From: Fibrobacterota bacterium
Lineage (GTDB): Bacteria; Fibrobacterota; Fibrobacteria; UBA11236
Direction of reading: 5' to 3'
Length of the DNA: 64,000 nucleotides
Assembly: GCA_019509785.1 (NCBI GenBank)
Contig: JAEKLQ010000025.1
Span: forward strand, 62,001 to 126,000
Made by a program: the position numbers and the translations under genes. Numbering within the stretch: the first letter of the stretch is position 1; each line of letters begins with the position of its first letter. A model generated the notes under the pieces. That model did no database searches, was not told the DNA's origin, and saw only the letters and a program-made list of their open reading frames with translations. Of the stretch, positions 17,089 through 60,890 are shown in pieces.

Positions 17089-20088
17089 ATGAATCCCGTA
17101 CGGGACTTCGTCGCATTCGATTTGGAGACAACCGGCCTCGAGCGGGATACCGATCGCATCATCGAGATCGGCGCGGTGCGCGTGCGCGAAGGCGCCTTCG
17201 AAGCGCGCATGTCCCGCCTGGCCAGGGTCGATAAGCCCCTGACCCCCTTGGTGGAATCCCTCACGGGCATCGCCTACGCGCAGTTGGCGGAAGCCGATCC
17301 GCTCCGGGCCGGCCTGGAGGAATTCCTCGCCTTCGCCGGGGATTTGCCCCTGGTCGCCCACAACGCCGACTTCGACGCGGCCTTCCTTTCCCAGGCCCTC
17401 GCCAGCGAAGGATTCGCTCCCCTGGCCAATCCCGTATTCGATTCCCTGCTGCTGGCGCGCACGGCTTGGCCGCGCCTGGACAGCCATCGCCTGGAAAACC
17501 TGGTCGCCGCCCTGGGCATCCCGCCGCAAACGGCCCACCGCGCCCTGCCCGACGCCGAGCAGGCGGCGCATGTGTGGCTGCGCGCGCAGGAAAAGTTAGC
17601 CGGATATGCGCCCGCCATTCGGGCCGCCCTCGCCCACCTCTTGGGACCGGGCCCCGACCATTGGCGCGCCCTTTTCGGGGGGCGGGCCGCAGGCGATGCG
17701 GGCGCATCCGAAGATGCGGGCGCATCTGCGGATGCGGGCGGAGTTCCCGGTTTCGATATATCGGGCCTGCTCCCGCGCCTTGCCCCAGGTAACACCGAAG
17801 CTACCCCCGGGCCGGGATTGGCGAAGCCGACCGCTTCGGCGGAATCCCTTTTCGCCGGCGAAGCCATGGGAAAGGCTTTTGCCGCGTTAAGCCGGCCCTA
17901 TCAGGCACGGAGCCGGCAAGCCCGGGTGGCCGCCATGGCCGAACGCGCTTTCCAAGAGGGCCGCGTGCTGGCCCTCGACGCCGACCCGGGATCCGGACGC
18001 GCCCTGGCCTGCCTGGCGGCGGCGCTGCGGCATGGCCGGGCCCGCCGCCGTCCCGTGGTCTACGCCGCCGCGGCCCGTAGCCGCATCGAACGGCTGGCCG
18101 AGCGGGAGTTCCCGTTGCTGAAGGCGCTTTTCCCCGATGCCCGCATCGAGGTTCTGAAGCCGCCTTCCGCCTACGTGAGCCCGCGCAAACTGGCGGGCAT
18201 CCTGGCGCATCCCGATACCCGCCTGACCGGGGAAGAGCGCCTGGCCCTGTTGCCCCTCCTGACCTGGCTGGAAGACGCCGGCGACGGGGACGTCGCGGAG
18301 AATTCCGGATTCAATTTCGATCGCCGTAAGACGCTTTGGTCCAAGCTTTGTTCCGATTCCTACGCCGCCGAACCCGAAGGCCATGCCTACGCCGCGCGGG
18401 AAAAGGCACGACGGGCCCATCTGGTCCTGATTACCCACGAATTGTTCCTGGACGATCTGGCGCTGGACTTCGCCTTGCTTCCCCCTTACGAGGCCATCGT
18501 CTTCGATGACGCCCATCGCTTGCCGGAGGCAGGCCAGTTGCGGTTGGGACGCGAAGTGGGCTTCTTCCGGCTGAAGCACATCCTGCAACTCATCGCCCAG
18601 GGCAAGCAGGATTCCCGGGGCCTGTTGGCCGAGCTCGAACGCGGGGCCGGCATCCTCGCGCCGGTTCCGGCGTCTACGGAAGAGAGTTCTACGGAAGAAA
18701 GTTCTACGCAAGTAGAGCCGAGCGAACCTGCCGATGACTTGCGCTTGCTGCGCCGTCTGGCCTTCGAACCCGAACGGCAATTGCAGAAGTTCTTCAACAA
18801 GATCGCCAAGCACGCGCATAAGCGGCGCAAGGACGGGGAGAGCCGCCTACGCTACGCCGACAAGCTGGTGGTAGAGTTCAACACCGGGCCCGAGCCCGTG
18901 CTAACGGCTTTGAGGGAATTGGAAGACGTACTCCGTCGCTTGGAGGGCATGCGCGCCGACCTCGCCCCGGACCTGCGCCGGGCGGCCGATCTGCTGCGCG
19001 ATTTCCGCTCCGACCTGGATCATCTGGCCCATCCTTCCGGCAAGGCCGAGACGCATTGGATCGAGGAATTCCCCAATCCGCATAAGGCCCTTTTGCGCAG
19101 CGCCCCATTGTCCTTCGGCCCCGTCCTCACCGAGAAGTTCCTTCCCCAGGTCGAGGCCGCGGTATTCGTATCGCCCGCCTTGGCCATCGGAGACGACTTT
19201 TCCTTCTTCTTAGGGCAGACCGGCCTGGACTCGCGACCCGAGCGCCTGAAAACCATCCTGGTGCGCGGCCGCGGCGCGGACGAGCCCCTCGATCCCGTTT
19301 TCATCGCGCGTTATAGCCCGGTGCTGTCCAACCCGGGCGCCCTCCAGGCGATGACCGCCTCCCTGGCCCGCGGCCTCAAGGGGCTGCCGCGGCCGACCTT
19401 GGCGTTGTTCACCCATATCGGCATGCTGAAGCAGGCCCGGGCCCTGCTGGCCGAGCAATTGGGGCCCATGGGCCGCTTGGTGGTGGCCCAGCACGTGGAC
19501 GGCGGGCGCGACAACCTGCTGCACTTGTTCCGGCATCGCCCGGATGCCTGCCTGCTGGCGACCGATGCCTTCGTGGAGAGCCTGGAGCCGGGGGATTCCC
19601 TACCCTCCCTGGTCGTGGTGACCAAGTTGCCCTTCCCCGTGCCCAGCGAGCCTTTGGTGGCTCCCCATCTGGAACGGCTACAAGAGGAGGGCAAGAACCC
19701 GCTCCATGAGTACTTGCTGCCCTGCGCCATCCTGCGCCTCAAGCAAGAGCTGAACCGCCTTCCCCGCGCGCCCGGCTCCCGTCTCGTGATCTGGATTCTC
19801 GATCCGCGCTTAGCCACCGAGAAATACGCGCGCTTCTTCCAACGGGGGCTCGGCCGCGAGGCCCGCATCTTCACCCGGGAAGAGGACCTGTTCGCGCGCA
19901 CGGCGGAAGCCTTGGGCCTCGCCGCGGTAACGACGGTTCCCGGCGAAACGCTTGCGGAACCGGCCGCCGCGAAGCCCGTTACGGCCGCGGAGGCCATTGG
20001 GGCCGGTCCTGAAGCCATCGCGACAGCGCCGGAAATCGCAGCCACGGAAACGCTAGCCGGAATCGGGGAGACTCAAGCGGAGGCATGA
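17089..20088 (+). CDS. DnaQ-type exonuclease fused to a degenerate DinG-like helicase
   Basis: Residues 1-170 form a DEDD 3'-5' exonuclease: FDLETTG, then VAHNADFD and HRALPDAEQ. From about 265 to the end the protein follows the DinG/XPD layout but with altered motifs. Walker A reads DADPGSGRALA (Lys to Arg, Ser/Thr to Ala) and the DEAH box reads DDAH. The Fe-S cysteines are absent apart from one Cys. Motif VI reads QELNRLPR. The C-terminal LPFPVPSEP and NPLHEYLLP segments confirm the relationship. Cluster-less DinG nucleases that are not helicases are known in Firmicutes; here even ATP hydrolysis is doubtful. The likely role is single-strand exonuclease activity in repair. Two short tandem repeats expand its linkers. 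Confidence 0.85.
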   Translation: MNPVRDFVAFDLETTGLERDTDRIIEIGAVRVREGAFEARMSRLARVDKPLTPLVESLTGIAYAQLAEADPLRAGLEEFLAFAGDLPLVAHNADFDAAFLSQALASEGFAPLANPVFDSLLLARTAWPRLDSHRLENLVAALGIPPQTAHRALPDAEQAAHVWLRAQEKLAGYAPAIRAALAHLLGPGPDHWRALFGGRAAGDAGASEDAGASADAGGVPGFDISGLLPRLAPGNTEATPGPGLAKPTASAESLFAGEAMGKAFAALSRPYQARSRQARVAAMAERAFQEGRVLALDADPGSGRALACLAAALRHGRARRRPVVYAAAARSRIERLAEREFPLLKALFPDARIEVLKPPSAYVSPRKLAGILAHPDTRLTGEERLALLPLLTWLEDAGDGDVAENSGFNFDRRKTLWSKLCSDSYAAEPEGHAYAAREKARRAHLVLITHELFLDDLALDFALLPPYEAIVFDDAHRLPEAGQLRLGREVGFFRLKHILQLIAQGKQDSRGLLAELERGAGILAPVPASTEESSTEESSTQVEPSEPADDLRLLRRLAFEPERQLQKFFNKIAKHAHKRRKDGESRLRYADKLVVEFNTGPEPVLTALRELEDVLRRLEGMRADLAPDLRRAADLLRDFRSDLDHLAHPSGKAETHWIEEFPNPHKALLRSAPLSFGPVLTEKFLPQVEAAVFVSPALAIGDDFSFFLGQTGLDSRPERLKTILVRGRGADEPLDPVFIARYSPVLSNPGALQAMTASLARGLKGLPRPTLALFTHIGMLKQARALLAEQLGPMGRLVVAQHVDGGRDNLLHLFRHRPDACLLATDAFVESLEPGDSLPSLVVVTKLPFPVPSEPLVAPHLERLQEEGKNPLHEYLLPCAILRLKQELNRLPRAPGSRLVIWILDPRLATEKYARFFQRGLGREARIFTREEDLFARTAEALGLAAVTTVPGETLAEPAAAKPVTAAEAIGAGPEAIATAPEIAATETLAGIGETQAEA
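17695..17741 (+). repeat. In-frame 18-bp tandem repeat in the exonuclease-helicase gene
   Basis: Units start at 17695, 17713 and 17731 (the third is partial), each beginning GATGCGGGCG. They encode repeated DAGAS-type peptides in the linker between the nuclease and helicase-like parts. Copy number may vary between strains. Confidence 0.7.
18673..18717 (+). repeat. In-frame 15-bp tandem repeat in the exonuclease-helicase gene
   Basis: Three units of about 15 bases starting TCTACGGAAGA (18673, 18688, 18703) encode STEES peptides in a surface loop of the degenerate helicase domain. Confidence 0.7.
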
Positions 20089-42980: not shown

Positions 42981-44873
42981 GTGCAGGCCATACCCTACCC
43001 GAAGGCGCTCCCGTTTTGCCTGAGCCTATGCATTGCCGCTCTCGCGGACGCGAAACCCGCGCCCGCTCCGGCTTCGCAATCGGCCAGCGCGGCCAATGCG
43101 GCCTCCGCGTCCGGCGACAGGGCCGCGGCCGCGGCTCTCAAGCGCGCCGAAGCCGCCTACCAGTCCGGCCAGCTTAAAGAGGCCGATGCGCAACTCAACC
43201 GGCTGCTGAAGCAATACCCGAAATCGCCGGCCGCCGAAGAAGCCTACGTCATCTTGACCGACATCGCCTTGCGCCAAGGGAAAGGCGAAGCCGCCTTGGC
43301 CCAGGTCGCCCGCTTCCATCGCACGTACGGGACCTCCGCCTACGGGGCCCGCATGGCTTACTACCAGGGCCAAGCGGAACTGCGCGTGGGCAAGAACGCG
43401 GAAGCGGCGCGCGCTTTCGCGGCGGCCGCGGTGGCCGCCCCCAATGCCGCCCTCTACGCCAACGCCTCCAAGGGCCTTTGGGCCATCGTGGAAGGCGGAG
43501 GGCTGCTCACCGAAGAAGCCGAAGGCGTGCTGGAAGCGGCGGAACGCGATCCGGCCTTGCGCGCGGGCCTGTTGGAGCGCCTGGGCGACCAGTACCTGCG
43601 CGAGGGCCGCTACACCGCCGCCCGCTCCGCCTTCCAGGATTGGCTGGATCGTTATGGCAAAGGGGACGGGGCGGGTCGCGTGAAGGAAAAGCTGCGCCAG
43701 GCGGCGGAAGCGCCCGTGCAGAACCGCACCATCCTCTTGATGGCCCCCATGACGGGCGAGTTCTCCGACATCGGCAAGGCCATGAAGGAAGGCGCGCAGC
43801 TCGCCGTCGACGACAACAACGCCAAAGGCGCGGGCCGCATCGAGGTCCGCATCCTGGACGATCAAGGCAATCTCATCACCGGCATCCACCGTTTGCGGAA
43901 GGTCATGCGCGACGAGCCCATCGACGCCGTGCTGGGCCCGGCCATGAGCGACGTCAGCGCCGGCGTCGCCATCGACCTTTCCGCCCGCAAGAGCCCGGTC
44001 CCCATGGTCACCCCCACCGCCACCACCCATGGCATCGCGGCCTTGGGGGACGGCATCTTCCAGCTCAACGTCACCACGGGAACCCTGGGGCAACGCATCG
44101 CGCTCTATGCCTCCGGCTGCCTGAAGCTGAAGGACTTCGCCATCGTGGCTCCCGAGAGCGAGTACGGCTACCAATTGGCCGACGCCTTCCAGAAGACCGT
44201 GGAGCGCAAGGGGGGCAGCGTGGTCTCCGTGCAGTATTTCCAGCCGGGAGCGCAGGATCTGGCCCCGCAGTTCGAGGAGATCCGCAAGGTGGCGGGCAAG
44301 ATGTACATCGAGAAGCTGAAGGCGGACGGCGTACCCGCTTCTGAGCTCGATTACAAGGCCCAGCAGAAAATCATGAGCGATTCCGTGCTGCCCCTGGACG
44401 GCGTATTCCTGGCGGCCACCAACGGCGAAGAGGCTTATACCCTCGCCTCGCAGGCGGCCTTCAACAAGATCCGCGCGCAATTCCTGGGCTCGTCGGGCTG
44501 GAACGATCGGGCCATGCTGCGGCGCAGCAGCACCGTCGCCGTGCAAGGCGCGTACTTCAGCGTGGACTTCCAGGAGAATTCCAAGACCGACGTTTACCTC
44601 GCGTTCTCGCGGGCCTACAACGCCAAATGGAAGCGCAACCCGGACAAGGTGGCCGCCCTGGCTTACGACGCGGCCCGCTTCCTCCTGCAAGGCTTGTCGA
44701 CCGCGCCTTCCCAGGACCAGATCATCCCCAGCCTGAAGGCCATCAAGAGCTTCAACGGGGTGCTGGGGCGCATCGTCTTCGACGAGAAGTACGGGGCGAA
44801 TACCAACGCCGCCATCTATCGGGTGGAGAAAAAGGGCTTCAAGGAAGCGGAGACCTGCCCCGAGGCGGAATGA
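42981..44873 (+). CDS. TPR plus periplasmic-binding-protein fold, LpoA/LivJ-like
   Basis: From GTG 42981 (GGAAAGG upstream) the 630-residue protein has a signal peptide ending AALA-DAK. TPR-type repeats occupy about 45-235 (AAAALKRAEAAYQSGQLKEA). A type I periplasmic-binding domain follows from about 250: TILLMAPMTGEFSDIGKAMK then EGAQLAVDD, and VLGPAMSDVSAGVAIDL. This combination is the layout of LpoA-like activators of penicillin-binding proteins and of leucine-binding proteins. It could activate peptidoglycan synthesis or bind a small solute. A longer N-terminal extension from 42894 lacks coding character. Confidence 0.8.
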   Translation: MQAIPYPKALPFCLSLCIAALADAKPAPAPASQSASAANAASASGDRAAAAALKRAEAAYQSGQLKEADAQLNRLLKQYPKSPAAEEAYVILTDIALRQGKGEAALAQVARFHRTYGTSAYGARMAYYQGQAELRVGKNAEAARAFAAAAVAAPNAALYANASKGLWAIVEGGGLLTEEAEGVLEAAERDPALRAGLLERLGDQYLREGRYTAARSAFQDWLDRYGKGDGAGRVKEKLRQAAEAPVQNRTILLMAPMTGEFSDIGKAMKEGAQLAVDDNNAKGAGRIEVRILDDQGNLITGIHRLRKVMRDEPIDAVLGPAMSDVSAGVAIDLSARKSPVPMVTPTATTHGIAALGDGIFQLNVTTGTLGQRIALYASGCLKLKDFAIVAPESEYGYQLADAFQKTVERKGGSVVSVQYFQPGAQDLAPQFEEIRKVAGKMYIEKLKADGVPASELDYKAQQKIMSDSVLPLDGVFLAATNGEEAYTLASQAAFNKIRAQFLGSSGWNDRAMLRRSSTVAVQGAYFSVDFQENSKTDVYLAFSRAYNAKWKRNPDKVAALAYDAARFLLQGLSTAPSQDQIIPSLKAIKSFNGVLGRIVFDEKYGANTNAAIYRVEKKGFKEAETCPEAE

Positions 44874-44913
44874 CACTGGCCCTGGGGCGGAATGGCGCCT
44901 GCCCCCGGGCGGC

Positions 44914-55952: not shown

Positions 55953-56915
55953 TTACTTGGCCGTCTTTTTGGCGGAGGCAGAAGCCTGGGCGCCTTTCAC
56001 GAGGCGGGCGATGTCGGCCTTGAACTGGGTTTCATCCACGCGCATCCCGTTCAAAAGGGTGCTCATCTCGCGGGTGAAGGCGGCCATGCCGATGGCTTCG
56101 GACAATTCCTCTTCGGTCGCGCCGTTGAGCTTGGCGAACTCGGTATGCGCGATGATGCAGTACTTGCACGGGATTTGCGCGGCCACCGCCAAGCCCACCA
56201 ACTCCTTGTCCTTGCCCTTGAGATCGGTTCCGGGATTGAGCTGCACGTCCTTGAACAGGCGCCAGGCGCCGGCGCGGCCTTGATCCGGGAACTTGCGCAG
56301 GAACTCGGGAGCCAGCCCCAAGGTACGGCTGATGTCCTGGAGGGCGCTGGCGCCATCGGTCACCGCTACGGCCTTCCCGCTTTGTCCCGACGATCCTTTC
56401 TTCGCGTTGGCCACGATCTTGGCGATCTCGGAGCGGAACTTGCCCTCGTCCATCTGGTTCCCGTTCAAGACCGTGCTCCAATGCCGGGTGATGGCCGCCA
56501 TGGAGACCGCTTCGCCCAGCTCGGCGTCGCAGGCCCCGTTGAGCTTGGCGAATTCGCTATGGGCCTCGATGCAATAGCGGCAGGGGATTTGCGCCGCCAC
56601 TCCCAAGCCGATCAACTCCTTCTCTTTGCCCGAAAGGGCGGTCTTGGGGTTCATCTGCAATCCTTTCATCTCCTCCCATACGCCGGGCAGGGCTTCGGCG
56701 GGGAAGGCCTCGAAGAATTGGGGCACGAAACCCAGGGTCTTCTGGATATCGGCGGTCGTGGCGGAATAGGGCGAATCCGGGGCATCTTTCGATGCGGGGG
56801 CCTCGGCGCCGCGGGCGATGCCGGCGAAGGCGCCCAGGGCCATGGCGGTCGAAGCAGCGACGGCCAAGAGGGTCGCGCGCAGGGTTTTGTTCTGGGGGAT
56901 TATTTGCTTGAGCAT
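55953..56915 (-). CDS. Exported protein with two AhpD/CMD domains
   Basis: The 320-residue protein has a signal peptide (to about residue 36). Two copies of a carboxymuconolactone-decarboxylase/AhpD-like domain follow, each with the redox motif C-x2-C-x3-H: C112/C115/H119 (CRYCIEAH) and C250/C253/H257 (CKYCIIAH). The copies also share GLGVAAQIPC-type helices, so they arose by duplication. AhpD proteins reduce peroxidase partners through the Cys pair; a periplasmic, duplicated form suggests oxidative defence outside the cytosol. GAGGAGA precedes the ATG. Its promoter carries the 57001-57036 repeats. Confidence 0.85.
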   Translation of the reverse strand: MLKQIIPQNKTLRATLLAVAASTAMALGAFAGIARGAEAPASKDAPDSPYSATTADIQKTLGFVPQFFEAFPAEALPGVWEEMKGLQMNPKTALSGKEKELIGLGVAAQIPCRYCIEAHSEFAKLNGACDAELGEAVSMAAITRHWSTVLNGNQMDEGKFRSEIAKIVANAKKGSSGQSGKAVAVTDGASALQDISRTLGLAPEFLRKFPDQGRAGAWRLFKDVQLNPGTDLKGKDKELVGLAVAAQIPCKYCIIAHTEFAKLNGATEEELSEAIGMAAFTREMSTLLNGMRVDETQFKADIARLVKGAQASASAKKTAK

Positions 56916-56988
56916 GGGAAGTCTCCTCGTTTTCCGTTCCGTCCCCCGGTGCCGGACCGCGAAGCGCGGCGCGTCCAGGTGACAAAGG

Positions 56989-56996
56989 GAAAATTA
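56989..56996 (-). promoter_or_regulatory. TAnnTTT-type -10 box of the AhpD-like gene
   Basis: TAATTTTC on the leftward strand, four bases downstream of the triple repeat. It predicts a transcript start near 56982 and a leader of about 65 bases with a ribosome site. Confidence 0.5.
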
Positions 56997-57000
56997 CGGG

Positions 57001-57036
57001 ACCCCCGTGTGAAGCCCCGTGTGAGGGCATGTGTGA
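57001..57036 (-). promoter_or_regulatory. Three 12-bp direct repeats, probable activator-binding sites
   Basis: Read leftward, three consecutive 12-base units each begin TCACAC; two of them continue with GGGG. The period is exactly 12. They lie between the stop of the SARP/BTAD regulator gene and the -10 box of the AhpD-like gene, covering the -35 region. Confidence 0.6.
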
Positions 57037-57054: not shown

Positions 57055-60000
57055 TCAGGCGGAAGGAGCGGTTGCGAGGCCCAAGCCATCGGCCAATTCC
57101 CCGGCCAATCGGCGCACGCGCAAGGGGAGCACGCGGGTCGCGGCGAGGGCGGGCTCGAGTTCGCGCCAGCATTGTTCGGCCTCGGGCTTGCGCCCTTGGG
57201 ACAAGGCGGAAAGGCCGAGCAGGCAACGGGCCCATACCGGTTCGGTTGCACGGAGCAGGGGTTCGCAACGGGCGATGGCTTCGGCGCAACGTTCGGCGAT
57301 AAGGCCATGCTCGCCGGCGCGACATTCGCGTTCGGCTCGCATCAACTGCATATACGCGGGCATGACCTTGACGTTGTCGGCGCGTAGCAGGGCCAGGGTG
57401 GCATCGAAGAGCGCCTCAGCGCCGGTATCCCCCATTTGTAGGCGGGCCAGCGCTTCCAGGGCCTGGCCGAAATGCCGGTCCGCGGAATGCCGCACTACAT
57501 CGTCCAATGCGTGAATCTCACGGACATGGGCCAACGCTTCCAAGGGATTTCCCTCCTCGAGTTCGAGCCTGGCAAGGTCACAGAGTATCTGGAACTCGAA
57601 TTGAGGAAGCTCTTTTTCCCGCATCAGGATGCGGGCCAAGCGCAAGTGGGCGCGCGCCTCGTCCAGCCGCCCATCGCGGTGCGCGAGCCAACCGAGCCCC
57701 GTGCGCGTATCCGCTTCCTCCAGTTTGTGCTGGCGGCAAATGGACTCGGAGTGCGATAACAAGGCCCGCGCTTTGGGAATCTCTTGATCGGTGGCCAAAA
57801 GGCAAAGCGCCATGCCTGACAAGCTGAAGGCGCGGGCCAGGGGATCTTCGATTTGCGCGGCCCCCTCCTCAATATCCAGAACCACCAATCCGCGCAAGAC
57901 GCTGGGATCCGGCCCGGTGAATTGGATTACCGAAAGCGCATATATGGCGGCCAAGCGCGTTTCCTCCTGACCCGCGGCCTTGGCCCTGGCTGCCAAACGC
58001 GCCAAGCGAAATTCGATTCCCGCGGGATAATCCGGCTGGTTATGGCCGGCACGGTTGGCGAGGAGGCAAAATTCGCGGCATAGGGCCCAATGACCGCCTA
58101 TACGCTCGAGATGATCAATCCCGCGCTCAATGAAGTCCACCATGGACGGGAATGCCCGAAGGCGGAAGCAATGGGTCCCGGCCTCAAAGCAGGCCTCGGC
58201 CGCCAGGGTCCAGCGTTCGCCGGCCTCGGCGTGCGCGGCGACTTCTTCCCAGCCGCGCCTCAAGGCGGGATGCGATCGTAACGTCTCGGCTACGTGGGCG
58301 CGCATGCGCGCCCGGCGCGGGGCCGACAGGGTCTCCTGCGCCCGCAGCCGGATCAGGTCGTGGCCGAAGAGGTATTCCATGCCGGCCTCCCCTTCCATCA
58401 CCCGCATCAGGCCCTGTCCTTCCAGGCGCTCCAAGGCGGCCAACAGGGTATGCACCGGCATTTCCAAAAGCGATTCCAGCAAGGCGGGCGGAGCGCCGCG
58501 GCCCAGGAGCGAGGCCCATTGCAGCACCAGGCGGCCGTCCTCGCCGGCCAGGCGGATGCGTTCGTCCAGCATGGCTTCGAGGCTGGCCCGCGGCCCCGCG
58601 CCCGTGTCCATGGCCAGAGCGAGCGAAGCCAGGGGATGCCCCGCGCTGCGCGCGAAGACCTCGCCGGGATCGCGATCGGAGCCGGCGGACTTGAGCAGGG
58701 AGGCGGTGCCCGCGGCGTCCAAAGGGCCCACCGGCCAGGTCTCGCAAAGGTTTTCCCGCTGCGCCAGGCGCAGGAACGGTTCGATGGGAGGATGGGCCGG
58801 GGCGGCGACGTTGCGCATGCCCGCCAAGGCCAGGCGGAACGGGCATTCGGCGTCGCGCAGGAGGTATTGCAGCAAGGCCACGGAGGCGCCGTCCAGCCAA
58901 TGCACGTCGTCGAGGACCAGGGCCAAGGGCGCTTCGGCGGCCAGGGCCGCGAGCCAGGCGCGCATGGCTTCGAAGAGGGCGGACTGATCGGAATGGCCTT
59001 TATCCGGGCTCCCGGAAGGCCTGACCAGGGGGCATTCGGCCGATCCCGCCGGCAGGCCGCGCGCGGCATCGATCCAAGGGCCCAGGGCCCGATCGCTTTC
59101 GGCCTCGAAGGCGCGGCCTTGCAGAACGCGCCAGCCCCGCGCCGCCAAGGCATCGCCCATCTCTTCCAGCAGACGCGTCTTGCCGATTCCCGGCTCGCCT
59201 ACCAGCAAGCGCAGGCGCCGGTCCGGCGTCGCGGCCAGCAGCGCGGCGAAGCGCGCGAGCTCGGAGGCGCGGCCGGCGATGGGCGGGCGCACGGTAACCG
59301 GGACGTTAACAGGGCGGATGATGGTCGCCCCGGGCGCGGGGGCGGGCTGCGATCCGGGCGCGGCGGGTCCGGAATTCCCCAACGGGCCGATGGCGACGCG
59401 CGCCTTCTCCAAGGCGGGGCCGGGAACGGATCCGTTCCGGCGCAGCATCTGCGCGCAACGTTCGTAATGGGCCAGCGCCTCGCGCTTGCGGCCCAGGGCG
59501 ATGAGGGATTCCACGATGGCGATATGGGGGCGCTCGTCCAAGGGATCTTGTTGCACCCACACGTGGGCCAGGCGCAGCCTGGCTTCGGGAAGGCCGGCAT
59601 GGCGGCGCAAGGCCTCCGCGAAAACGGCGGCCCGCGCCTGGGTCAAGGACTTCTCCTCCCCCAAGCGCCAGCTTTCGAAGCGGATGGCATCGTTCAGATC
59701 GAGATCGGCCAGGAAGGGGCCGGTAAGCTGGGCCACCGCGCTTTCCAAGACGGCGGTTTCGGCCTGGTCGGGGGCGCGGGCCAGGTCCCGCAAGCGCCGC
59801 GCATCCACCTCCCAACCGCCGGGCTCCACCCATAAGGCGTCGTCCTCGGCGATCAGGCGCGCCGCGCCTCCGGAGTCGAGCACGGTCTTGAGGCGCGACA
59901 GGCACCAGCGCAAGGCCCCGCGCGGATCGGGCGAGTTCTCCCAGAGCAACTCGCAAAGGCGGGCCCGCTGCAAGGGCCTTTCCGCCGTGGCCAGGCAAGC

Positions 60001-60090
60001 CAACAGTGCCCGGGCTTGTCGCGAAGCCGGCAGCCCCAGGGGATCGTCCCCCAGCCAGGCGCGGAGACCTCCGAAAGTCTGGATGCGCAA
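57055..60090 (-). CDS. SARP/BTAD-type ATPase transcriptional regulator
   Basis: The 1011-residue protein starts with an OmpR-type winged helix (about 1-95: IQTFGGLRAWLGD, LWENSPDPRGALRWCLSRLK). A bacterial transcriptional activation domain follows (about 96-235). The ATPase part has Walker A GEPGIGKT (298-305) and LVLDDVHWLDGASVALL. The C-terminal 450 residues are TPR-like helices, a sensor-type array. This is the large AfsR/MalT-like activator layout, unusual outside Actinobacteria. The only standard start is TTG at 60090; an AGGAG further upstream is better placed for an ATC codon, so the true N-terminus is uncertain. It probably controls the adjacent AhpD-like gene. Confidence 0.88.
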   Translation of the reverse strand: MRIQTFGGLRAWLGDDPLGLPASRQARALLACLATAERPLQRARLCELLWENSPDPRGALRWCLSRLKTVLDSGGAARLIAEDDALWVEPGGWEVDARRLRDLARAPDQAETAVLESAVAQLTGPFLADLDLNDAIRFESWRLGEEKSLTQARAAVFAEALRRHAGLPEARLRLAHVWVQQDPLDERPHIAIVESLIALGRKREALAHYERCAQMLRRNGSVPGPALEKARVAIGPLGNSGPAAPGSQPAPAPGATIIRPVNVPVTVRPPIAGRASELARFAALLAATPDRRLRLLVGEPGIGKTRLLEEMGDALAARGWRVLQGRAFEAESDRALGPWIDAARGLPAGSAECPLVRPSGSPDKGHSDQSALFEAMRAWLAALAAEAPLALVLDDVHWLDGASVALLQYLLRDAECPFRLALAGMRNVAAPAHPPIEPFLRLAQRENLCETWPVGPLDAAGTASLLKSAGSDRDPGEVFARSAGHPLASLALAMDTGAGPRASLEAMLDERIRLAGEDGRLVLQWASLLGRGAPPALLESLLEMPVHTLLAALERLEGQGLMRVMEGEAGMEYLFGHDLIRLRAQETLSAPRRARMRAHVAETLRSHPALRRGWEEVAAHAEAGERWTLAAEACFEAGTHCFRLRAFPSMVDFIERGIDHLERIGGHWALCREFCLLANRAGHNQPDYPAGIEFRLARLAARAKAAGQEETRLAAIYALSVIQFTGPDPSVLRGLVVLDIEEGAAQIEDPLARAFSLSGMALCLLATDQEIPKARALLSHSESICRQHKLEEADTRTGLGWLAHRDGRLDEARAHLRLARILMREKELPQFEFQILCDLARLELEEGNPLEALAHVREIHALDDVVRHSADRHFGQALEALARLQMGDTGAEALFDATLALLRADNVKVMPAYMQLMRAERECRAGEHGLIAERCAEAIARCEPLLRATEPVWARCLLGLSALSQGRKPEAEQCWRELEPALAATRVLPLRVRRLAGELADGLGLATAPSA

Positions 60091-60206
60091 TTGGGGTTGG
60101 ATGATATTTTCTCCTGGACCGGCACGTTGCCGCGGAGGAAAACTAATATCCCGCGGGCCGCGAAAGGGCGGTGGGATTTCCGCCCCCGAAAAAGCATCTT
60201 AAAGCT

Positions 60207-60890
60207 ATGACCCCGATGTACTTGCCTTTCGCTTTGATCCTCGCCTTCGCCGGCACTGCCGCCGCGCAGACCTGCCATGCCCCCGAATCCCGGCAATTCG
60301 CCGACCAAGGCGGCCCCCACGTCGCGGAATGCACCGAACTATCGTACGCTCAGTATCCGCCCACTTCAGGCCGCCATTTCGACGGCATCTGGGCCAACCC
60401 CGGCACCTATCGCTTCGTCGTCAATACCGGATACTGGTTGCACTCCGCCGAGCACGGCTCGGTCATTTTCCTGATCAATTGCCGCCTCGATCCCGATTGC
60501 GGGGTCGACTACGGCCGCCTTCAGGCCATCGCGGACGCCTTCCCGAACGACACCGTCTGCGCCGGCACCAAGTACAAGCATCGCATCGTCATAAGCGCCG
60601 ATACCCTGATCACGACGCGATACGCGGCGGTGGCTTGGGATTGGAGCCTGGAATCGGACTGTTTCGATTCGACCGCCTTCGCGGGATTCCTGAAGGCCCA
60701 TTACGCGCAAGCGCCGGAAGACATCTGCGGCTTCGGTACGGATTTCACCGGCACCGGATGGTGCAATGGCCCTTTGGCATTGAAAGCCCCGCGGACGCCC
60801 GCCCGCAAGGCGGCCCGGACCTGGCATGCATCCTTCTGGCCGGGTCTTCCCGAGAACGTCCGTCCCGACGGCAAAAACCTTAAGCCTTAA
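60207..60890 (+). CDS. DUF3105-like exported protein
   Basis: The 227-residue protein has a signal peptide (cleavage near AAA-QT, residue 20). It carries the DUF3105 motifs: YPPTSGRHFDGIWANPGTYR, LHSAEHGSVIFLINC, and TTRYAAVAWDWSLE. Several Cys may form disulfides. The family is of unknown function; conserved His residues suggest metal binding. A second ATG at 60217 is an alternative start. It precedes the 452-residue unknown gene by 21 bases. Confidence 0.78.
   Translation: MTPMYLPFALILAFAGTAAAQTCHAPESRQFADQGGPHVAECTELSYAQYPPTSGRHFDGIWANPGTYRFVVNTGYWLHSAEHGSVIFLINCRLDPDCGVDYGRLQAIADAFPNDTVCAGTKYKHRIVISADTLITTRYAAVAWDWSLESDCFDSTAFAGFLKAHYAQAPEDICGFGTDFTGTGWCNGPLALKAPRTPARKAARTWHASFWPGLPENVRPDGKNLKP

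Follow-up and report, generated by a model that had tools for sequence, protein, structure and literature searches.

The three 12-bp direct repeats located between a gene for a large SARP-type regulator and an AhpD-like gene (hereafter ahpD) in a Fibrobacterota genome are, as judged from comparative sequence analysis, very probably the operator of this adjacent regulator, which would use them to activate ahpD in an AfsR-like manner. The analysis started from a 64,000-nt stretch of a single contig (the window) and covered six genomes of the genus, including the 5.4 Mb genome of the window itself, 168 genomes of the phylum, and plasmid-borne SARP loci from other phyla. The apparent novelty, as indicated by these comparisons, is a set of SARP operators with a 12-bp pitch that are tied to one SARP clade of Fibrobacterota and Alphaproteobacteria. 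To our knowledge, hardly any SARP operators have been described outside Actinobacteria.

Both genes are encoded on the minus strand and are separated by an intergenic gap of 139 bp, with the SARP stop codon at 57055–57057 and the ahpD start codon at 56915. As transcribed, the intergenic sequence reads ...TCTCACACATGCCCTCACACGGGGCTTCACACGGGGGTCCCGTAATTTTCCC..., i.e., three repeat units, the four bases CCCG, and the putative promoter box TAATTTTC (56989–56996). The initial annotation had described three consecutive 12-base units, each starting with TCACAC, just past the stop of the 1011-residue SARP gene and immediately upstream of a box; all of this is borne out by the minus-strand sequence from 57036 to 57001 (TCACACATGCCC TCACACGGGGCT TCACACGGGGGT), with 18 bases from the stop to the first unit and with the small refinement that CCCG stands between the third unit and the box. 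The units are contiguous, two of the three being 11/12 identical, and each consists of a heptamer followed by a 5-nt spacer: TCACACA tgccc (unit 1, 57025–57036), TCACACG gggct (unit 2, 57013–57024), and TCACACG ggggt (unit 3, 57001–57012). The distance from the third heptamer to the box is 9 nt, so that the entire element may be written as TCACACA-5-TCACACG-5-TCACACG-9-TAATTT (12/12/9 geometry). A Shine-Dalgarno-like GAGGAG (56923–56928) lies ahead of ahpD. The array was not reported by Tandem Repeats Finder because it is short and imperfect. Elsewhere in the window, at 44853–44912, there is a 22-bp tandem repeat with 2.7 copies (ACCTGCCCCGGGGCGGAATGAC).

The regulator (57055–60090, minus strand, TTG start) was assigned to the large SARPs by Pfam, profile, and Foldseek comparisons. 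Its winged helix (residues ~1–95) is followed by BTAD (99–231), AAA_16 ATPase (272–416), and TPR (756–819) regions, and the Pfam scores for BTAD (PF03704, 43.2 bits vs. a cut-off of 22.1), AAA_16 (75.1 bits), and TPR_12 (31.3 bits) all exceed the respective cut-offs. The Pfam Trans_reg_C model was not reached by the SARPs of the genus, the one from G004 alone giving a match at E = 0.023, and a single-protein sequence search against PDB returned no match. A profile was needed: built from four sequences of residues 1–246, it matches AfsR (8hvr, E = 8.8e-9) and EmbR (2fez, E = 2.2e-5) over the whole length and aligns with AfsR over residues 2–235, as expected of an N-terminal OmpR-type winged helix, in keeping with the AfsR-like circuit initially proposed. 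The AlphaFold2 model is weak (mean pLDDT 59.6) and shows the expected order of strands and helices; with this low-confidence model, Foldseek ranked AfsR and EmbR first at TM-scores of 0.3–0.4, values so low that the support is by ranking only. A secreted-looking DUF3105 gene (60171–60890), divergent from the SARP gene, is conserved in the related genome G005 (L029 8969–9895) and has no repeat element of its own.

The putative target (55953–56915, minus strand) encodes a 320-aa protein with an N-terminal signal-like segment and two CMD/AhpD domains. It belongs to the CMD/AhpD-domain superfamily by Pfam CMD (90.4 bits in two stretches) and by TIGR00778 (74.7 bits vs. a cut-off of 27.8, also in two stretches) and falls far below the cut-off of the true-AhpD model TIGR00777 (26.7 vs. 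191.95 bits). Alignment reveals the motif E-x11-CxxC-x3-H in both halves, the second-half His being replaced by Asp in two relatives. The initial annotation had linked the circuit to periplasmic redox defense; a redox or peroxide role would be plausible for the protein, but the regulatory module as such is not defined by redox, because the genes neighboring other members of the SARP clade are varied (see below).

Established SARP operators consist of direct repeats that are 11 or 22 bp apart, with the 3′ copy 8 bp from the −10 element (PMC10936776, PMC7040171, PMC4393881), and a review permits spacers of 4–15 nt (PMC10972967). The window element has three heptamers upstream of its target, i.e., at least two direct repeats of 6–9 bp, and its 9-nt distance to the box, counted from a 7-bp unit, becomes 8 nt with the 8-bp footprint of AfsR and is constant at the sites of the genus. 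The pitch is what departs from the established operators, being at every site 12 bp rather than 11 or 22 bp. The initial proposal of a SARP operator overlapping the ahpD promoter, in an AfsR-like arrangement outside Actinobacteria, is strongly supported by the comparisons between genomes described below. The closest parallel is AfsR-afsS of Streptomyces coelicolor (22-bp afs box), which shares the winged helix-BTAD-ATPase-TPR organization (the second part of AfsR being NOD and TPR), the adjacency of regulator and target, and a tandem array of direct repeats whose 3′ copy lies ~8 bp ahead of a weak −10. It differs in pitch (11 vs. 12 bp here), in number of units (two vs. three or four), in the base-contacting Thr88 that is replaced by Trp here, in phylum, and in the target, which is CMD/AhpD-like here. 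PimR-pimM of Streptomyces natalensis, a SARP-LAL system, resembles the window locus in having three heptamers in an operator dedicated to a single neighboring gene. For PimR, spacers of 4 nt, binding of a single monomer to each heptamer, and a requirement of at least two heptamers for binding are described (PMC5930380); unlike the window element, its operator has an 11-bp pitch and the consensus CGGCAAG and does not overlap the −35 region, and the C-terminal half of the regulator is of the LAL type. As for the box, TAATTTTC reads as either a −10 hexamer (TAnnnT) or a Bacteroidetes-type TAnnTTTG box. Its counterparts in the genus include one full fit to the latter (TAAATTTG, in G005), while TAATTTTC, TATCTTTA, and TAACTTCG deviate at one position each; however, TAnnnT also fits an ordinary sigma-70 −10.

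The genus genomes contain four SARP-AAA-TPR genes (one in the window's genome, G000, two in G005, and one in G004), and the same layout is found at each of them: three 7-mers with a period of 12, a 9-nt gap, and TAnnTT, with words that differ among the loci and a target that differs once. In the G005 ortholog (SARP 74% and AhpD-like protein 77% identical), the element is TCACACG TCACACG TAACACG, followed by CCCG and TAAATTTG. Between the orthologs of G000 and G005, the heptamers are identical at 19/21 positions and CCCG plus box at 10/12, compared with 6/15 for the spacers and 22/60 for the 60 nt upstream. The SARP gene and ahpD of G005 are separated by an oppositely oriented DUF4143 ATPase gene, and the repeats stay at ahpD, over 1.2 kb away from the stop codon of the SARP gene. 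The second G005 pair (SARP 52%, AhpD-like 54%) carries TTCCACG ATCCACG GCCCACG, 9 nt, and TATCTTTA, and the element on G005 contig C310 is identical to that in a Fibrobacteres MAG record (JAHFCH010000060.1). In G004, where the SARP is 31% identical, the element (L032 2646–2599, minus strand) reads TCCAACG TCAAACG TACAACG, 9 nt, and TAACTTCG; it overlaps the final codons of the SARP coding sequence, and the start codon of the target follows ~65 nt beyond the element and box. This target is a different gene, whose product looks secreted and matches Pfam models only below threshold (PirA-like as the best, E = 0.0017; Polyketide_cyc2/SRPBCC, E = 0.066). Finally, G002 has an AhpD-like gene (60% identity) and lacks both a SARP of this kind and, beside this orphan, the repeats. 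The initial annotation had expected the 12-base period to persist in relatives, and it does so in every relative within the genus that retains both genes; loss of the repeats from relatives keeping both genes, named there as contrary evidence, was not seen in the genus genomes.

Two side observations were made at these loci. The DUF4143/AAA_14 ATPase gene of G005 (L029 13078–14343) has similar-looking ORFs at 930–2063 and 19116–20000 of the same contig, which suggests a mobile or spreading family. Upstream of the orphan AhpD-like gene of G002 (contig G002:C88, L012; 31501–32394, minus strand), there is an inverted-repeat-like sequence, TGCCAATACGGCA, rather than direct repeats, and this gene is possibly under another regulator. 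No further relative of the window SARP was found in the 168 genomes of the phylum at E <= 1e-20; a contig scan for distant SARPs yielded one close relative and ten weak ones, the latter mostly ATPase-only and without clear repeats.

The element stands out from chance expectation in several respects. A word-independent scan for three 7-mers with a period of 12 and 9 nt to a TAnnTTTG-like box (237 kb, both strands counted) assigned 16–19 of 21 points to the four SARP-adjacent sites, and the next best site scored 13. A weak triple ahead of the start codon of the SARP gene (60247, minus strand) also has 13 points, which is background level, and was not counted as autoregulation. Dinucleotide shuffles of each ~240-nt region, with the period (10–13) and the gap (6–12) left free, gave P ~1e-4 or less (worst 1.5e-4). 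These shuffles and the genome-wide searches are the fairer tests, because the register and the box were picked after the sites were known. Genome-wide counts are based on pattern searches: TMACACN6TMACACN6TMACAC (at most one mismatch) has a single match in the window's genome, a single match in G005 beside the orthologous gene, and none in the other four of the six genus genomes. The more general MMACGN7MMACGN7MMACGN9TANNTT (at most one mismatch) matches only the four SARP-adjacent sites in the six genomes; outside the genus its 18 scattered matches, one of them exact, do not exceed the reversed-pattern control.

Homologs of the SARP domain were further drawn from plasmids of Alphaproteobacteria, Betaproteobacteria, Deinococcota, Chloroflexota, Cyanobacteriota, and Streptomyces; the sample of other phyla thus consists of plasmids only. 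A survey has doubted that proteobacterial matches are typical SARPs (PMC7040171), and our literature search (open-access only) found no paper that treats operators of SARPs from rhizobia, Fibrobacter, or Proteobacteria. When 27 plasmid loci (287 kb) were subjected to the word-independent scan, with low-complexity or simple-repeat tracts and one intragenic period-11 match set aside, only four sites emerged, all in Ensifer, with a period of 12 and a best gap of 9; each lies at the promoter of the divergently oriented neighbor of the SARP gene. A word-based scan, which gave fewer matches at periods other than 12, added two Rhizobium loci, in which the element separates the SARP gene from one for an alpha/beta hydrolase, as well as Alloyangia, where four units precede a cupin gene (box CATTCT), and Mesorhizobium, where the element is on the divergent side (box CAATCT); these four labels depend on the word from other loci, and those of Alloyangia and Mesorhizobium are without a TA box. 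A second Mesorhizobium site (L076 8018–8051) has two units, TCCAACG-5-TCAAACG-9-TAGCTT, ahead of a DUF4242 gene and overlaps the SARP 3′ codons. Four tandem heptamers occur in some clade members (L083 6948–7005; L077 4910–4853, minus strand), which keep the pitch of 12 bp and the 9-nt distance to where the box would be. Over 38 units from 12 loci, the heptamer consensus is TCCCACG, with T at position 1 in 35 units, A at position 5 in all 38, C at position 6 in 34, and G at position 7 in 33.

When 32 SARP domains were placed in a maximum-likelihood tree, the element-bearing loci fell in one group (support 93/96). The 12/12/9 element is present in 12 of the 13 members of this clade (Microvirga being the member without it) vs. 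0 of 19 other SARPs, counts that represent only about eight independent lineages, as the orthologous Ensifer loci and the G000/G005a pair are not independent. Its distribution on the tree takes 2 changes, vs. 9.8 with shuffled labels, and 0 of 500 shuffles were as low. When the word-independent scores were compared by period, seven clade loci reached 15–19 at period 12, whereas non-clade loci stayed at or below 14 at this period and clade loci at or below 13 at every other period from 9 to 14; Ensifer L089 and L090, which scored 17–19 in the 27-locus scan, have their sites partly beyond the stretch used in this comparison. The genes next to clade members are of various kinds (SRPBCC-like, cupin, alpha/beta hydrolase, PLP enzyme, methyltransferase, DUF4242). 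Overall, the initially proposed AfsR-like arrangement gains from the fact that the repeats follow ahpD in G005, are absent in the SARP-less G002, and recur beside alphaproteobacterial SARPs.

The clade is also marked within its predicted recognition helix, which in the window SARP spans residues 56–72 (PRGALRWCLSRLKTVLD; 59875–59925, minus strand), a helix predicted between that of residues 42–52 and the beta wing. The recognition helix of AfsR makes base contacts through Thr88 and Arg92, the former being a conserved residue of Streptomyces SARPs (PMC10936776). By profile alignment, with the chain-to-AfsR residue offset of 20 checked on Thr63 and Glu77 named in PMC10936776, Trp62 of the window SARP corresponds to Thr88 and Arg66 to Arg92. 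The clade lacks the conserved Thr: Trp occupies this position in 13 of its 13 members vs. 0 of 19 other SARPs, and all clade members have Arg or Lys at position 66.

How well does an operator of the adjacent SARP fare against other explanations of the repeats? A neutral tandem repeat produced by replication slippage, with no regulatory role, would agree with the contiguity of the units and the 11/12 identity of two of them, but it was rejected as extremely improbable: the heptamers are conserved while the spacers vary between units and orthologs, other loci have other words in the same 12/12/9 geometry, and the element is tied to one SARP clade. A terminator, or some element belonging to the 3′ end of the SARP gene, was likewise rejected on the position of the G005 repeats, remote from the SARP stop and next to ahpD. 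The repeats might also serve another regulator acting on ahpD, such as a response regulator of the OmpR/PhoB type, given that OmpR-type winged helices in general share the habit of using direct repeats of ~11 bp. This we consider very unlikely, as no element exists where the SARP is absent (G002), the element always adjoins a SARP of the same clade even though the target genes are unrelated, and it is unique in the genome.

Binding by the SARP itself as a repressor, or chiefly for its own regulation, is a somewhat stronger contender and still improbable. The elements of Ensifer and of one Mesorhizobium locus lie between divergent SARP and target genes and could serve both; those of Fibrobacterota and Rhizobium, however, come after the SARP gene and lie at the promoter of the gene that follows it, the word-independent scan detected no second element at SARP promoters, and a site upstream of a −10 without an evident −35 matches the known SARP activators (PMC10936776, PMC7040171, PMC4393881). 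The objection with the most weight, although we favor it in only a minority of our judgment, concerns generality rather than the window site: the sites in G004 and at the second Mesorhizobium locus may reflect nothing but coding constraint on the SARP C-terminus, so that the generality within the genus would be overstated. Indeed, 12 bases equal four codons, and the two C-termini (IPTP GQTR VTTP and IPTP VQTG) share IPTPxQT; yet G004 keeps the exact 9-nt gap to TAACTTCG with the target start ~65 nt further on, and the other sites, being intergenic, are unaffected. The overlaps in G004 (IPTPGQT) and in the second Mesorhizobium locus (IPTPVQT) are possibly dual-use sequence.

For the preferred reading of a SARP operator, we infer binding, activation, protomer packing, and signal control from the computed repeats, their geometry, their co-segregation with the regulator, and the homology to AfsR. 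SARP protomers would bind side by side, one per heptamer, with the protomer on the third repeat adjoining RNA polymerase as in AfsR, and a promoter without a good −35 element would thereby be activated at the TAATTTTC box; the AAA and TPR domains may gate this activity in response to a signal. The placement next to RNA polymerase would be canonical because of the box distance of 9 nt (8 nt with the AfsR footprint). At 10.5 bp per turn, a step of 11 bp ends ~17 degrees past a full turn and a step of 12 bp ~51 degrees past it; because of this additional rotation of the protomers, we infer that the side-by-side contact cannot be identical to that of AfsR. The window SARP appears to be dedicated to one neighboring target.

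Taken more broadly, these data make it likely, with less confidence than for the window operator itself, that SARPs of two phyla form one Trp-marked subfamily, which recognizes TCCMACG heptamers in sets of three or four with a fixed 12-bp pitch, each member serving one neighboring gene. If so, the protomers of this subfamily would pack with a different rotation (~50 vs. ~17 degrees) and have a dimer interface unlike that of AfsR. A constant and searchable 12/12/9 element provides predicted binding sites and targets for orphan regulators of the clade and makes the co-evolution of repeat pitch and recognition helix directly testable, and the fixed-pitch layout shared by two phyla points to a distinct branch of SARPs whose target genes may be found by sequence.
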